Below, one piece after another: positions 21,782 to 29,868 of a stretch of DNA of 56,619 nt. The notes beneath the pieces were generated by a model. The model searched no databases and was not told the DNA's origin. It saw only the letters and a list, made by a program, of their open reading frames with translations. The stretch lies in the NCBI GenBank assembly GCA_029881495.1, contig JAOUMJ010000018.1:1-56619 (forward strand), in the 5' to 3' direction. Position numbers and translations under genes: made by a program. This DNA is from Nitrospinota bacterium. GTDB taxonomy: Bacteria; Nitrospinota_A; UBA7883; JACRGQ01. Position 1 is the first letter of the stretch, and each line of letters begins with the position of its first letter.

Positions 21782-23929
21782 TTACACTGCGAGAATTTTA
21801 TATTCTCCTTTTTCCCATCCGTCCTGTCCCGACAGATACCACTTGGAAAATCGACGGTCGGAAGGGCCTCCGGCCAGTGCAGTACGAATATAATTTTTAT
21901 CCATTTCCGCGATCATCCGGAATGTAGGGCAAAAACTGGTGGTTCTCCCGCCTGAATTGTATAACTGCCCCTGATGAATACTTGCGCGCCCTCCGCGCAT
22001 TTTTACCGGACCTCCGTCAAATCCAAACAAAGCCGGAAGCTTACCCCCAAAAAACATATTCGAAAGTTTATATTTTTTGCTTTCTCCCCACTCGACAGCT
22101 TCGCCTGAAAGCGCTTCCAGCGCACACTCGGAATATATCTCATTTCTTGACTTTCCATTGAACCACTCTGATCTTTCGGCCAGCAATACCCTGTCGAAGT
22201 TCCCGTAAAAATCGGCAAATATACCGGTCCCTTCGTGGAGCCAGCTGACCACCTCCTCACCCAAAGCGCTTTTACCGAAAACCTTGATCAACAGCTTCTT
22301 GTAAAACTCCTCAAACAGATAGGCACCTTTTGATTCCGGGTCATAACAGCAATCCCAATCGCGAAGAATATCCCCCTGCCGCGAAAACGGGAGGAGCGGA
22401 CGCAAAATATCCATGATTTTTTTTGCCTGCAGGGAATATGTATCGAACTGCATTTTCTCGCAGTATTCCGGCGTTAATTTTTCCCTCTCGTCGATCAATT
22501 GCCTTATGCGGTCCGCCCTGTAGCTTTCCATCGAGATGTTGCTAGCAGTGACCTTGCCCAGATGATTTAGATCATCATTGGCAGTGACTATATATTGCTC
22601 ATCCGGGTTATAGCTTCTTGGCAGATCGACATACTCAAAAAATCCCTGCCAGTCGTTCTCTTTTTTCCACCCCTCAAGCGGAACAAAGCCTGACGACCCC
22701 TTCCCCCTTTTCGGCAACAAGCCTGACATCTGATATCCGATGTTTCCGGCAACATCTGCAAATACCCAGTTAAACGACACCTCGAGATTCCCCAGGCAAT
22801 TCATCCCCTCTTCAGCGCTCTTCGCGCTCCAGATATCCGTGAACGCCTTTAACGATTTTACTCCCGCCTCTGCCGTGGCCCATCGCGTAGCCAGGTATAA
22901 TCCTTCTTCATAGGGGTCTCCATCCAGCACGCCATGTTCGTTTTCGTAAAATTTCACCTCTATCGGTTTCTTCCCTTTTCTTTTTATGATCTCCTTGCGT
23001 TCCGAAAAGGGAACCCATTTGCCGTCCTCTCGCTTAGCCTTCCCATCCTTGCACTCCTCCATCCATGAGTCGACGGAATCCATGAAACTGTAGGTCACCC
23101 CCCATGCAAGATCGTTTGTTTTCCCTATCACCAGCGCGGGAATACCCGGCATCGTTGCCCCCATACCGTAGCGTTCTCCCACGGAAAGCGATATCTCATA
23201 CCACACGTTTGGCAGACGATTATTTTCGAGATGCGGATCATTCGCAAGCATCGCCTGGCCGCTGGCGCTTCTCGCGCCTCCTACCACCCAATTGTTCGAC
23301 GCCATCACCCGCGGAACAATGGAGTTCCACTTCAGCCCTTCCGGCACTATCCTCTCGGAAAGTTTTATCCTCCGTATCAGCGCCTCATCCATATCCCCAA
23401 GAAGGCCGGGAAAAAGCTCTTCCAGTTTTTCCTTTTCAACGCCTCCCTGAACCATCTCCACCAGTAGCCGCTCTATCTCTCCCTGCGACTGTGCCAGCGT
23501 GAGATACCCGGTCATGCGGGAAAGAAGCATCGTATCGCCGATCGTCCACGCATCTGGTTTGTATCCCGCAAGCTTCAGCTCCCACGGATATTTTTTGGAT
23601 AAATATTCGTTCACACCTAGACAGTATGAATCTGAAAACTCCTTCAGGTCGGGCGTAAGTTTTGTGACTTCAGAATCGACCTTCCCGCTCCAGTTCATCT
23701 TGCGGAAAAAGATATCTATCTCCTCCATCTCTTTGGTTGACTGCAGAAGTTCGGAAGCGCGCCCGAGGCCGAGGATCCGCATAAGAAGCATTTGAAGCCC
23801 CCTGTCCATCGCATGACAATAACCAAGCCCTTTATAAAGGTCTGCGATGCTGTCAGCTTTTACATGCGGTACGCCGTTTTCATCACGACGGATGCTTATT
23901 GGCCCCTTCCCCATTATCAACTTTTTCAT
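21782..23929 (-). CDS. Penicillin-acylase-family Ntn-hydrolase without signal peptide
   Basis: This is a 715-residue penicillin amidase/acylase (peptidase S45) homologue. The autocatalytic junction and nucleophile lie at Ala210-Ser211 in MASNNWVVGG, followed by the conserved MLANDPHLENNRLPNVWYE. The N-terminal alpha-chain block DENGVPHVKADSIADLYKGLGY and the later VFADVAGNIGYQMSGLLP also fit. These enzymes self-cleave and hydrolyse amide bonds of acylated compounds such as N-acyl-homoserine lactones or beta-lactam side chains. The protein begins MKKLIMGKGPISIRRDENG with no hydrophobic leader, unlike most family members, which are exported. The gene stands alone, convergent with a kinase gene. 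The substrate is unknown. Confidence 0.9.
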   Translation of the reverse strand: MKKLIMGKGPISIRRDENGVPHVKADSIADLYKGLGYCHAMDRGLQMLLMRILGLGRASELLQSTKEMEEIDIFFRKMNWSGKVDSEVTKLTPDLKEFSDSYCLGVNEYLSKKYPWELKLAGYKPDAWTIGDTMLLSRMTGYLTLAQSQGEIERLLVEMVQGGVEKEKLEELFPGLLGDMDEALIRRIKLSERIVPEGLKWNSIVPRVMASNNWVVGGARSASGQAMLANDPHLENNRLPNVWYEISLSVGERYGMGATMPGIPALVIGKTNDLAWGVTYSFMDSVDSWMEECKDGKAKREDGKWVPFSERKEIIKRKGKKPIEVKFYENEHGVLDGDPYEEGLYLATRWATAEAGVKSLKAFTDIWSAKSAEEGMNCLGNLEVSFNWVFADVAGNIGYQMSGLLPKRGKGSSGFVPLEGWKKENDWQGFFEYVDLPRSYNPDEQYIVTANDDLNHLGKVTASNISMESYRADRIRQLIDEREKLTPEYCEKMQFDTYSLQAKKIMDILRPLLPFSRQGDILRDWDCCYDPESKGAYLFEEFYKKLLIKVFGKSALGEEVVSWLHEGTGIFADFYGNFDRVLLAERSEWFNGKSRNEIYSECALEALSGEAVEWGESKKYKLSNMFFGGKLPALFGFDGGPVKMRGGRASIHQGQLYNSGGRTTSFCPTFRMIAEMDKNYIRTALAGGPSDRRFSKWYLSGQDGWEKGEYKILAV

Positions 23930-25024: not shown

Positions 25025-25056
25025 TATACACATAATTATGCTAATTTATGTGTATA
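25025..25056 (+). promoter_or_regulatory. Long palindromic operator of the vapBC module
   Basis: TATACACATAA (25025-25035) and TTATGTGTATA (25046-25056) form a perfect inverted repeat with 11-base arms and a 10-base spacer, 22 bases ahead of vapB. Type II toxin-antitoxin complexes bind such sites to repress their own transcription; this binding is inferred. Confidence 0.75.
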
Positions 25057-25077
25057 AACGAAGGGAGATATTTTCAT

Positions 25078-25278
25078 ATGACACGGACAAATATTGAATT
25101 GGACGAAATACTTGTTGCGGAAGCAATGAAGCTCACCAGGAAGAAGACCAAAAAGGAACTGGTAAATTACGCGCTGGAGGAACTTGTCCGAAAGAAAAAG
25201 AGGAAAAAACTCCTTGAGTTTGAAGGCAAGGTAAAATGGTCCGGTAATCTTGTCGAGATGAGAAAAAGCAGGGGATGA
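25078..25278 (+). CDS. vapB: VapB-family antitoxin
   Basis: The protein has 66 residues from the ATG at 25078 behind AAGGGAG (25061-25067). The N-terminus MTRTNIELDEILVAEAMKL is a ribbon-helix-helix DNA-binding motif typical of VapB antitoxins of the DUF2191 type, followed by a basic helix (ELVRKKKRKKLLEF) and a C-terminal toxin-binding tail. The last four bases overlap the start of vapC (ATGA). It should neutralise the PIN-domain toxin and, as a complex, repress its own promoter through the palindrome upstream. Confidence 0.92.
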   Translation: MTRTNIELDEILVAEAMKLTRKKTKKELVNYALEELVRKKKRKKLLEFEGKVKWSGNLVEMRKSRG

Positions 25279-25679
25279 TACTTGTTGATACCAGCGTATG
25301 GATCGATTTCCTAAGGGGCACCCCTTCCCCTCAGCGGCATCTCCTTCACAGACTTATAGAGGAAGAGGAGGATATTTCCATTACCGGGATTATTCTTACG
25401 GAAATCCTTCAGGCCATTAGGGAAGATAAACAATTCAATGCCGTTAAAAGCTATCTTATCGAACTCCCCATCTTTGAACCTGAGGGCGTCGATACATATC
25501 TGAAGGCGGCAAGCATCTACCGCGATTGCAGAAAAAAGGGGAAGACCGTAAGGAAGACGGTCGATTGCGTCATCGCCGCCATATGCATCGAAAACAGGCT
25601 CCCCCTCCTCCACAAAGACAACGACTTCACCAATATCGAATCATGTACCGACCTGAAATTGTTATCAACTAATCAGTAA
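25275..25679 (+). CDS. vapC: VapC-family PIN-domain ribonuclease toxin
   Basis: This is a 134-residue PIN-domain protein with the expected acidic site: Asp5 in ILVDTSVWIDF, Glu43 in LTEILQAI, Asp97 in KTVDCVIAA and Asp115/Asp117 in HKDNDF. VapC toxins are magnesium-dependent endoribonucleases that cut tRNA or rRNA when the antitoxin is degraded. The gene is translationally coupled to vapB. It lies at the edge of the AT-rich defence-like gene, a usual place for such modules. All catalytic residues are present, so it is probably active. Confidence 0.94.
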   Translation: MILVDTSVWIDFLRGTPSPQRHLLHRLIEEEEDISITGIILTEILQAIREDKQFNAVKSYLIELPIFEPEGVDTYLKAASIYRDCRKKGKTVRKTVDCVIAAICIENRLPLLHKDNDFTNIESCTDLKLLSTNQ

Positions 25680-25924
25680 CGCCACCCGCATACTCTACGA
25701 CTCTTTTGCAACTTTTCTATTCGCAAAGTGCATTAACTAGTTTGATAATTATGTATGAATATTTACAGCCATAAGCAGAAGCTGATACAGAATTCTCTTT
25801 TCTTTATTTTACTGTCACTTACATGTTATTCTTTAATTAACAAAATAATCGGCATATAAAATATATTATAAAAGGTCAAAATAATTTATAAATGTTTAAA
25901 TTCTGTGTAAAATAATCGAAGATT

Positions 25925-28339
25925 ATGGATTATGAAACTGGAAAAATAAATTTAATCAAATTAGGAAGTGATTATTCTGCATCAAACAGAAATGAAGCTT
26001 CAACAAGATTTCACCTAATTGATCGCCTTTTTTGTGAATGCTTAGGCTGGGAAAGGGAAGACTGCTCACTGGAAGAATCTTATGCTGGTGAGTTTACAGA
26101 TTACACCTTCAAAATCAGCAGTAGAAGAGTCCTAGTTGTTGAAGCCAAGAAGGAAGGTGATTATTTCGAGGTCAGTGTTGAAAAAATTAGAAAAAAAGAA
26201 TACTTAATTTCGACTTTATGCAAAGACAATCCTAACCTCAAGAAAGCAATAAACCAAACAATTAGCTATTGCCAAGCTAGAGGCGTTCCGGTCGGATGCG
26301 TTTGTAATGGACCTCAGATCGTAATATTTATTGCATGCAGAACAGATGGCATATCTCCTCTAGAGGGTCGAGCAGTAGTTTTTGTTTCATTTGACCATAT
26401 GATAGATAACTCTTTAAAACTATGGAATTTCATGTCCAAGGAGGGCATAAAAGATGAAAGAATCATTTTTCATTTACTAGAAAAACCTCTACCTGTTGTA
26501 CCTAATAAGCTTTCAAGTAGGTTGCTAAACTATCCTGGTCTTAAAAACAGAAATAGCTTTCAAATTGATTTACAAATGTTAAGCGATATCGTACTTGAAG
26601 ATATGCCAAACACAAAATCAATGGAAAAAGAGTTTCTCTCGTACTGTTACTGTCCGAGTGGAGCACTTTCTCAACATGCAATGATTAGCAAATCTCTTTT
26701 GAGGGCACGACATACTGCGCTGTTTAGTTCTGATATTAAAGCTCCAAAAATTGAACAAATTAGTGGAAAAAAGGGAATTGCAGATAATTTTATTGCTGAA
26801 AGCATCAGCAAACGTCCAATTTTGCTGATTGGCTCTGTTGGCTCTGGAAAAACGATGTTTACTAGACATTTGATTAATATTGAAGCATCAGAAATATTTG
26901 AAAAAGCCATCACTCTACACTTAGACCTTGGTGAAACAGCAATACTTGGCAGAGATATAAAAGGCAGTATTGTAGATATTATAATCAAGCAACTTATAGA
27001 AATATACAATATTGACATATTCGAAGATACCAACATTAGGAAAATTTACCCAGATGAGATCAAGAGGTTCGATAAATCAATATATGGAAAACTTAAAAAA
27101 ACAAACGACCTTACGTTTGTTAAAAAAGAAATTGAAATGCTCGAAAAACTTACCTCTCAAACCGAGAAGCATCTTAAAAATTCATTAACATTCTATTCCA
27201 ACGTTAACAGGAAACAAGTTATTATCTTCCTTGATAATATTGATCAGAGATCTGAAGATGATCAGCAATCTGCATTTCTAGTTGCCCAAGAACTAGCGGC
27301 TAACTGGAAATGCACGGTATACTTAGCCTTAAGACCAGAAACATTTCATCGATCTGTAAAATCTGGTGCACTAGATGCTTATCATCCAAAAGCATTTTCT
27401 ATTGCTCCACCTCGAATTGACGATGTAATTGAAAAAAGGTTAAATTTTGCACTCCAAATTCTAAGGAAAAAACTAATTAGTCGCGATGAAACACTGAATA
27501 CACTGTTTGACGTAAATTATTCAAAAATGGAAATAATCATAAAATCATTTAAAACAACATTGCTACGAAAAAAAGATACAGTTGAGGCTATAGATAATAT
27601 ATCCGGTGGAAATGTTCGAAAAGCTTTAGGATTTGTAAAAACCTTTTTTTGCAGCGGACATGTAGATACTGAAAAAATAGTTGCTAAGGGAGAAGGGTAT
27701 TCCGTCCCACTCCATGAATTCTTAAGGGCCATTATCTTTGGGGACTCCATCTATTACAATCCAGAAAGCTCACCAATAGCTAATTTATTTGATGCTACTA
27801 GGAATGATCCAAAAGAGCACTTTTTAATACCAGTTTTGTTATCAATACTTAATTCTCTTACATCTTCAAACAGTGAAGATGGATTTATCAACATGAGTAA
27901 AGTTATTGAAAGCTCACAAGGAATAGGCCTTACACCAACACAAATTAATGAAACAATCAACAGATGTATTAAGTATAGTTTGTTAAAATCATCTGGTTCA
28001 TCTGATAAAAATGAAGAGGAACCTATCGCTGTCAGGATTACTACTGTTGGTGAGTATCATAGGAAAAAGCTTCTATTACTATTTGTTTATTATGACGCCA
28101 TAATTGTTGACACCCCCATCTTAGATCACAGCTTTAAAAGTCAAATTAAAGACGAACAAACAATACTTGGTAGATTGAATCGTTGTGATATATTTTGCGA
28201 TTACTTAGACCTAATGTGGGAACAGAGCAATCTACCTACGGATGTCTTTGATTGGAAAATCTATTCTAATGCCATTAGGAATAATATATATACTATAAGG
28301 AGAGAACTTTCGTCCCATAGAGCGCAGAAAAATGATTAA
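25925..28339 (+). CDS. Putative defence protein: PD-(D/E)XK nuclease fused to P-loop NTPase
   Basis: This is an 804-residue protein. The N-terminus (about 20-135) resembles the HsdR-type nuclease domain: Glu24 in NEASTRFHLID, Asp59 in EFTDYTF, Glu73-x-Lys75 in VVEAKKE, the QxxxY motif QTISY (111-115) and CNG (127-129). The middle is a P-loop NTPase with Walker A GSVGSGKT (303-310) and Walker B VIIFLDNID (432-440), then an arginine-containing LALRPETF (467-474). The C-terminus is helical and may contain winged-helix segments. It is AT-rich (two counted 60-base lines are 38% and 30% G+C) and differs from its neighbours. A single-gene anti-phage or plasmid-defence role is inferred. There is no obvious Shine-Dalgarno before ATG 25925. 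Confidence 0.75.
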   Translation: MDYETGKINLIKLGSDYSASNRNEASTRFHLIDRLFCECLGWEREDCSLEESYAGEFTDYTFKISSRRVLVVEAKKEGDYFEVSVEKIRKKEYLISTLCKDNPNLKKAINQTISYCQARGVPVGCVCNGPQIVIFIACRTDGISPLEGRAVVFVSFDHMIDNSLKLWNFMSKEGIKDERIIFHLLEKPLPVVPNKLSSRLLNYPGLKNRNSFQIDLQMLSDIVLEDMPNTKSMEKEFLSYCYCPSGALSQHAMISKSLLRARHTALFSSDIKAPKIEQISGKKGIADNFIAESISKRPILLIGSVGSGKTMFTRHLINIEASEIFEKAITLHLDLGETAILGRDIKGSIVDIIIKQLIEIYNIDIFEDTNIRKIYPDEIKRFDKSIYGKLKKTNDLTFVKKEIEMLEKLTSQTEKHLKNSLTFYSNVNRKQVIIFLDNIDQRSEDDQQSAFLVAQELAANWKCTVYLALRPETFHRSVKSGALDAYHPKAFSIAPPRIDDVIEKRLNFALQILRKKLISRDETLNTLFDVNYSKMEIIIKSFKTTLLRKKDTVEAIDNISGGNVRKALGFVKTFFCSGHVDTEKIVAKGEGYSVPLHEFLRAIIFGDSIYYNPESSPIANLFDATRNDPKEHFLIPVLLSILNSLTSSNSEDGFINMSKVIESSQGIGLTPTQINETINRCIKYSLLKSSGSSDKNEEEPIAVRITTVGEYHRKKLLLLFVYYDAIIVDTPILDHSFKSQIKDEQTILGRLNRCDIFCDYLDLMWEQSNLPTDVFDWKIYSNAIRNNIYTIRRELSSHRAQKND

Positions 28340-28386
28340 TTAGAATTATACCTGCATTAACAAGTAGGAGTGCTCTCCCTTAAAGG

Positions 28387-29868
28387 CTATAGTAACACTC
28401 GTTTGATGGCGGAGAGCCAGCCGGAGTAGAGGGCGTCGCGTTTCGCGTTGTCCATCGACGGGATGAAGCGTTTCTCGGATTTCCATAGGTCGCGGATCTC
28501 ATCGAGCGAACCATATACCCCCGTCTGCAATCCGGCAAGGAACGCCGCGCCGAGTGCGGTCGTCTCCGTTATCACCGGGCGGTCAACCTCCGCGCCTGAA
28601 ATATCGGCAAGGAACTGCGATAGCCAGTCGTTCTTCACCATCCCGCCGTCAACTCGTATAACCGGAGGTCTAGCGGCGCCGTCCATTACAAGCGCTTCAA
28701 TCAAATCCCTGCTCTGGTAGCAGACCGCTTCCAATCCGGCGCGGACGATATGCTCCTTCGTGCTGTCTCGCGTGAGACCGAAGATCGCGCCTCGCGCGTC
28801 CGGATCCCAGTGCGGAGCGCCAAGCCCGGTGAACGCAGGGACAAGATAAACGCCACCCGTACCATCAACCGATCTTGCCATCGCTTCGGTCTCGCTCGCG
28901 TTTGCGAAGAGTTTCATCTTATCGCGCATCCACTGCACGGTCGTCCCTGCGTTGAATATCGAACCCTCCATCGCGTATACGACTTTCCCGTCGAGGCGAT
29001 AGCCGACCGTCGTAAGCAGGCGGTTCTTCGACGCGACCCCCTTCTCACCCGTATTGATTATCATGAAACAGCCGGTGCCGTATGTGCTCTTCACCATCCC
29101 CGGCTCGAAACAGCACTGCCCGAAAAGGGCCGCCTGCTGGTCACCCGCCATCCCGCCAATCGGGATCTCCGCTCCGAGGAGCGACGCGTCGGTCGTGCCG
29201 AAATCGGCGGCGTTATCGAGAACATCCGGCAACAGCTTTTCCGGAACATTGAAGATCTTCAACAGCTCCCCGTCCCACTCCTGCGTATGGATATTGAAGA
29301 GCGACGTGCGCGCCGCGTTTGTAGCGTCTGTCGCGTGGCTCTTTCCTCCGGTGAGACGCCAAAGGAGGAAAGTGTCGATAGTGCCGAATGCAAGCTCCCC
29401 CGCATCGGCCCTCTTCCGTGCGCCCGGGACGTTATCGAGGATCCATGCTATTTTTGTCGCCGAGAAGTAGGGATCGACGACCAGCCCGGCCTTTGCGCGG
29501 ATGGTCTCCTCATGCCCGCCTTCTACGAGCTTTCGGCAAATCTCGGCTGTCCGCCTGTCCTGCCAGACTATCGCCTTATGAATCGGCTTTCCTGTTTTCC
29601 TCTCCCATATGACGGTCGTCTCCCGCTGATTCGTTATCCCGATAGCGGTAATATCCTTTGCCTTGACCGATTTCGTTGAAAGCGCTTTCCAGCAGACTTC
29701 AAGAGTGGTATTCCAGATCTCTTCCGGGTCGTGCTCCACCCAGCCGTCGCGGGGGAAATACTGCATGAACTCCTTCTGATCCTGCGATACCAGGTTTGCG
29801 TAGCCGTCGAAGAGAATAGCGCGGCTGCTGGTCGTCCCCTGGTCGATGGCAAGTATATAGTCCGGCAT
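28387..29868 (-). CDS. glpK: Glycerol kinase
   Basis: This is a 493-residue FGGY-family kinase that makes glycerol-3-phosphate from glycerol and ATP. The signature blocks are all present: N-terminal [17 protein letters not shown], the substrate-binding NQRETT and [28 protein letters not shown] and the C-terminal [18 protein letters not shown]. The length is normal. It acts in the cytoplasm. No glycerol facilitator or glpD gene is adjacent. It is G+C-rich compared with the preceding AT-rich gene (57% and 68% in two counted lines). Confidence 0.98.

Follow-up and report, generated by a model that had tools for sequence, protein, structure and literature searches.

A single AT-rich gene in a 56,619-nucleotide stretch of a Nitrospinota bacterium genome (the window, meaning the whole stretch of DNA analysed) probably encodes, at roughly three chances in four, a one-protein defence factor against phage that has spread horizontally and in which a STAND/ORC-Cdc6 NTPase switch would activate an HsdR/BpuSI-type DNase. 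The open reading frame has an ATG start, codes for 804 amino acids without interruption, as the original prediction had read it, and is present in one copy in the 2.82 Mb assembly. Searches of the query protein against Pfam and NCBIfam returned no model at the curated cut-offs, and PADLOC gave none below E = 0.05. Sequence searches against the PDB yielded no informative match. The family is without a Pfam, NCBIfam, or PADLOC-DB 2.0.0 model and is covered only by PHROG_14719, a cluster annotated as function unknown; residues 16-796 align with positions 20-805 of its 833-position profile (E = 1.2e-87), a full-length match. A literature search on the domain architecture found no paper on this family.

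The N-terminal domain is predicted to be an HsdR/BpuSI-type PD-(D/E)XK nuclease, and comparisons of profile and fold confirm the assignment. All of the elements from which an HsdR-type nuclease had been proposed (Glu24, Asp59, Glu73-x-Lys75, QTISY at residues 111-115, and CNG at residues 127-129) are present in the reading frame, and E24, R28, D59, E73, K75, Q111, and Y115 are identical in each of 55 aligned homologues (20-44% identity). We take QTISY to be the QxxxY motif of RecB/HsdR-type nucleases. When modelled alone (pLDDT 89.5), the domain matches BpuSI (3s1s) and a Vibrio HsdR (3h1t) in Foldseek searches, both with probability 0.99 and E values of 3-4e-3, with lower-confidence matches to DrdV, Cas4, and EcoR124I HsdR. 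The Pfam model HSDR_N_2 is found in 7/55 homologues (best E value, 3.1e-7), and HSDR_N scores 36.8 bits against a Pfam cut-off of 25.1 in one member of a sister clade (locus L030); the query protein alone has no HSDR_N match in Pfam.

The proposed Walker A/B NTPase is likewise borne out, and the motif residues are invariant throughout the alignment (Table 1). Because the nuclease and Walker residues are identical in all 55 homologues, these motifs are not chance matches, and strong constraint must act on both of the presumed enzymatic centres. Across the same homologues, Pfam reports AAA_22 in 50/55, and the best E values are 1.3e-8 for AAA_16, 1.8e-8 for NACHT, 2.1e-7 for nSTAND_NTPase5, and 1.3e-6 for KAP. 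Foldseek searches of the PDB place Cdc6/ORC1 first (1.1e-6), followed by a plant NLR resistosome, CED-4, and RdrA (E = 0.002). The features of the STAND class are found, namely a P-loop core, R470, which is presumably the sensor-1 arginine as in STAND NTPases, a winged helix in the model, and fold matches to NLR, CED-4, and ORC proteins; we assign the modelled domain to a joint STAND/ORC-Cdc6 clade, within which STAND and ORC/Cdc6 are not cleanly separable here. The SGGNVR segment may represent a sensor-2-like G-N-x-R motif as in ORC/Cdc6. NTPases of the STAND/ORC-Cdc6 clade are used by known immune proteins. In the full-length AlphaFold model (pLDDT 86.1, pTM 0.83), the long helical C-terminus described in the original prediction is recovered as a set of helices, but the region is not only helical, and a unit with H-H-H-E-E secondary structure that is probably a winged helix precedes them. 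The C-terminal helices are candidates for a sensor or oligomerisation part.

Table 1. Positions of the gene, its predicted domains and motifs, and its upstream neighbours in the window
Feature	Position	Strand	Basis
VapB-VapC toxin-antitoxin pair	25048..25679	+	Pfam VapB_antitoxin 3.1e-16, PIN 5.9e-15
AT-rich upstream spacer, 245 bp	25680..25924		G+C 0.273 (27%)
Single gene for 804-aa nuclease-NTPase protein, PHROG_14719-type	25925..28339	+	ORF; PHROG_14719; AlphaFold
Predicted N-terminal PD-(D/E)XK nuclease, HsdR/BpuSI type, residues ~1-180	25925..26464	+	Domain model, Foldseek, HSDR_N_2
Core catalytic motif D59 ... E73-A-K75	26099..26149	+	Invariant in 55/55 homologues
Q111-T-I-S-Y115	26255..26269	+	Q and Y invariant in 55/55 homologues
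P-loop NTPase core, STAND/ORC-Cdc6 clade (predicted), residues ~291-495	26795..27409	+	Pfam in homologues; Foldseek
Walker A GSVGSGKT, residues 303-310	26831..26854	+	G303, G306, G308, K309 invariant (55/55)
Walker B QVIIFLDNIDQR, residues 431-442	27215..27250	+	D437, N438, D440 invariant (55/55)
R470 in LALRP	27332..27334	+	Kept in 53/55 homologues
SGGNVR, residues 560-565	27602..27619	+	R565 in 54/55 homologues
Winged-helix-like unit (predicted), residues ~629-705	27809..28039	+	H-H-H-E-E secondary structure of model
C-terminal helices (predicted), residues 706-804	28040..28336	+	AlphaFold model

Homologues number about 100 from five phyla, and the relatives recovered lie on 28 plasmids, on 43 viral or proviral contigs, and at 54 bacterial-genome loci, with Bacteroidota, Pseudomonadota, Actinomycetota, Acidobacteriota, and Verrucomicrobiota among the hosts. 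The plasmid-borne copies, some of them on conjugative plasmids, include proteins with 39% identity (Shewanella) and 32% identity (Paracoccus). Searching the genome contigs required a profile built from eight sequences, as a scan with the single query found nothing. The distribution is patchy. In 59 relatives there is no good homologue, one genome besides the query itself giving a partial P-loop match only (9e-5), and in a quick tree the query groups with two Bacteroidota sequences (support 91). INPHARED phage records gave no tblastn match with three queries, so the viral carriers are prophages and prophage-like contigs, not sequenced phage isolates. The family falls into two clades of about 820 and about 890 amino acids, the latter drawn largely from P2-like prophages and homologous to the query clade over 706 columns (hhalign E = 3e-64). 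A sister-clade protein (L030, 3677-6340) ends in an S1 domain and a Rhodobacteraceae homologue (L010, 8001-10874) in two cold-shock repeats; in both, nucleic-acid-binding modules are fused to the nuclease-NTPase. Broken copies, some interrupted by stops, occur at six loci (L074, L078, L095, L097, L099, and L105), and in Escherichia coli one copy carries an IS1 insertion (H7) and another is a split reading frame (C8). Such broken copies are usual for defence genes.

The surroundings of the homologues are strong evidence for a defence role. Homologues constantly accompanied by a housekeeping gene would have pointed elsewhere; we looked for such a gene and found no constant partner across the homologue loci, and the recurrent neighbours are those of the vehicles, namely tyrosine integrases (20 loci), serine recombinases (11 loci), and P2 core genes. 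The defence-island association that the original prediction depended on is evident. When the nearest reading frames on each side of chromosomal homologues were compared with PADLOC models (counted at 1e-10 or better), 130 neighbours gave 136 matches, against three for 116 control reading frames taken 90 kb or more from the gene on these contigs; the 136 are models and not proteins, with 25 from HamB and 58 from one methylase, and defence proteins are nearer ten, although the contrast is still large. These neighbours include HamA and HamB of Hachiman (L062), a C5 methylase, an HpaII-type enzyme, a type IV restriction enzyme, a SIR2-Argonaute, and several PDC candidates. We also observed, directly upstream of a Rhodobiaceae homologue, a 1640-residue protein matching PDC-S37 (E = 0) and Hhe (L081, 3973-8892). 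In Vibrio sp. ES.051 (L061, 3487-9499), two large proteins, PIN-TPR-GreABC and a permuted GreAB-C, lie just upstream of the homologue; this pair is a predicted biological-conflict system.

Two prophage settings are particularly well defined. On viral contigs, 13 loci have the gene no more than 1.5 kb from the P2-type portal gene, and in 9/13 P2 gene A is on the other side; this gpA-gpQ interval is the P2 defence hotspot that holds old and tin (Rousset et al., PMC9122126). In E. coli the gene is rare prophage cargo, present in 16/5,426 genomes; Rac-like prophages carry it between DUF1367 and DUF977, and Qin-like ones between DUF977 and hokD. WP_045170235.1 is a homologue from Rac and WP_001349602.1 one of the Qin type. 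In strain T-HYM1 this Rac slot is occupied by PARIS (AriA, 1.2e-39; AriB, 1.8e-12), and in strain PapM-32-1 by an ATP-dependent nuclease with a C5 methylase. The slot (L151, 3129-5287; L152, 2573-5466) thus varies in content between strains and looks like a defence hotspot. Taken with the mobile carriers and the want of an obligate partner, these contexts support the proposal of a horizontally acquired, stand-alone defence gene, as a candidate identified from sequence.

The gene is also a compositional stranger at its own locus. Its G+C content is 34.2% and that of the spacer 27%, against a window mean of 46.2%, and its GC3 is 0.27 compared with 0.46-0.72 in nine other genes of the window; it is therefore foreign-looking and AT-rich. 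The original prediction of an AT-rich island holds against the window mean, but its comparison with the neighbouring glpK exaggerates the contrast, as glpK (G+C 0.582) is itself an outlier in the opposite direction. The 245-bp spacer presumably carries the gene's own promoter; a promoter scan over the region gave 9 promoter-like matches against 11.8 expected, which is not above chance. A VapBC pair directly upstream had been noted, correctly, as flanking the gene, but that the two form one acquired module is not supported: VapBC has a host-like G+C content (0.41-0.46), and no VapB or VapC homologue is found among 1,822 reading frames flanking the gene's homologues, and for these reasons we do not regard them as the same cassette. 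We found no tRNA at the locus, and a search for flanking repeats or a target-site duplication gave short imperfect repeats only, with no convincing boundary. An empty-site comparison was attempted with 22 relatives of the same family and class; glpK (28387-29868) and a penicillin acylase gene (21782-23929), one on each side of the gene, are both missing from all 22, and matches to mgtE are distant. Because both flanking genes are missing, the whole stretch around the gene, and not that gene alone, seems to be lineage specific. The query's own locus is no defence island, its neighbours other than VapBC being penicillin acylase, glpK, mgtE, and nhaA. The right part of the contig (~36759-56616) appears, by sequence reading, to be a long chemosensory and response-regulator cluster with CheA-, CheB-, CheW-, and receptor-like genes.

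From the architecture and these contexts we infer nuclease and NTPase activities, their coupling, a trigger, a DNA substrate, and protection against phage. The NTPase, winged helix, and C-terminal helices would together serve as sensor and switch. The trigger would be phage derived, most likely phage DNA or a phage protein bound to it, and would provoke an NTP-dependent rearrangement or oligomerisation that switches on the N-terminal nuclease; this might then cut either the invading DNA or the cell's own, the latter leading to death of the infected cell. We favour nucleic-acid sensing by the family, given its winged helix, its kinship with ORC, and the S1 and cold-shock domains in which some relatives end. 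Nonetheless, cargo genes of prophages and plasmids can serve other ends, and several competing explanations merit consideration.

The first, which we consider a substantial possibility at rather less than even odds, is that the protein is a direct restriction enzyme, type IV- or IIG-like and dependent on modification or sequence. Here the NTPase and winged helix would recognise foreign or modified DNA, or travel along it, for the nuclease to cut, and the cell would not kill itself. The two closest nuclease folds, BpuSI (type IIG) and HsdR (type I), are both restriction enzymes, and the likeness extends to the E...D...ExK...QxxxY order of the PD-(D/E)XK residues; one plasmid homologue (H14) bears the annotation 'Predicted type IV restriction endonuclease', DNA binding is a property of ORC/Cdc6-type ATPases that have winged helices, and the S1 or cold-shock C-termini are nucleic-acid-binding domains. 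However, neither a methylase nor a specificity partner is constant, no modified-base reader domain is found by Pfam in the 55 homologues, and the NTPase is more like a switch NTPase than a translocase or helicase. Unlike HsdR and BpuSI, the protein joins its nuclease to a STAND/ORC NTPase, without an SF2 translocase, methylase, or specificity subunit. Type I restriction-modification itself was rejected, as no HsdM, HsdS, or SF2 helicase is found in the protein or adjoining it, and HsdS lies within 20 kb of a homologue in only 2/39 homologue-bearing genomes; the original prediction had likewise set aside an ordinary type I system for want of a methylase or helicase.

A second alternative bears on novelty and not on function: the gene could be a distant member of the DefenseFinder system FS_HsdR_like, an identity that has a real chance of being correct although we would sooner expect otherwise. 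This system is described as one HsdR-like protein on phage-inducible islands of enterobacteria, and so may resemble the present family; PADLOC-DB 2.0.0 has no matching model for the family. More distant is the suggestion that plasmids or rival mobile elements, and not lytic phage, are the main targets of the protein, or that it works in exclusion between elements. Homologues are frequent on conjugative plasmids and islands, and an ORC-like ATPase could recognise replication origins, but anti-phage cargo is what the best-defined homes of the gene (the old/tin interval of P2 and the Rac slot where PARIS is also found) are known to carry, and we think this improbable. It is highly improbable that the gene encodes an initiator- or partition-like maintenance or replication protein of mobile elements with an attached nuclease. 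In its favour, Cdc6/ORC initiators head the PDB fold matches of the NTPase, and replication genes are close by in Rac/Qin and P2 prophages. Yet the gene is cargo, absent from most prophages of a given type, in which other genes fill the slot; it also occurs in chromosomal islands beside Hachiman or restriction-modification genes, and it has no constant replication partner.

The favoured reading, an NTPase-switched DNase in one protein, is of a kind already known from Avs proteins and from the P4 hotspot. The family shares with Avs (AVAST)/bNACHT NLR proteins the combination, in a single protein, of an N-terminal nuclease effector and a STAND-clade NTPase, as well as residence in prophage, satellite, and defence hotspots. 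The C-terminal repeat sensor of Avs proteins binds terminase or portal. In contrast, the proteins of the present family are only ~800-890 amino acids long, the NTPase fold is closer to ORC/Cdc6, and the model predicts a winged helix and about 100 helical residues with no C-terminal repeat-array sensor; Avs models in PADLOC match neither the query protein (E up to 10) nor the 55 homologues. Nucleic-acid sensing would set the family further apart from Avs proteins, which read phage proteins via repeat arrays. The P4 hotspot holds Mrr_cat- and BpuSI_N-STAND proteins (PMC9122126). RADAR RdrA and BREX BrxC/BrxB are also STAND/ORC-type ATPases in anti-phage systems, BrxC being classed with ORC/Cdc6 (PMC12839542), but these need partner genes, whereas here a lone gene carries its own nuclease. 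Weak matches to MADS (mad8) in 12 homologues (best 3.9e-6) were taken as shared domain similarity and membership was rejected. PHROG_14719 is the same protein family, as a function-unknown cluster without a proposed mechanism.

A more ambitious proposal treats these proteins as a superfamily of their own, made up of compact immune receptors of one protein each, with ~820- and ~890-residue clades in several phyla, plasmids, and prophages, outside any described defence system. Their ORC/Cdc6-like STAND NTPase would detect phage nucleic acid directly and set off an HsdR-type DNase, and their C-termini (winged helix, S1, or cold shock) would be interchangeable. We offer this tentatively and regard it as somewhat unlikely; the claim to novelty is lowered because of the possible identity with FS_HsdR_like. 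Nonetheless, the family is a well-bounded candidate, with about 100 proteins, fixed catalytic residues, and strong genomic evidence for defence, of which the curated libraries searched give no functional description, naturally broken copies exist, and the E. coli prophage versions lend themselves to assay in laboratory strains. Such a system would connect HsdR-type nucleases with switch ATPases of the STAND/ORC type in the absence of repeats or partners, and would show whether an NLR-like protein of this small size is able to sense DNA on its own.
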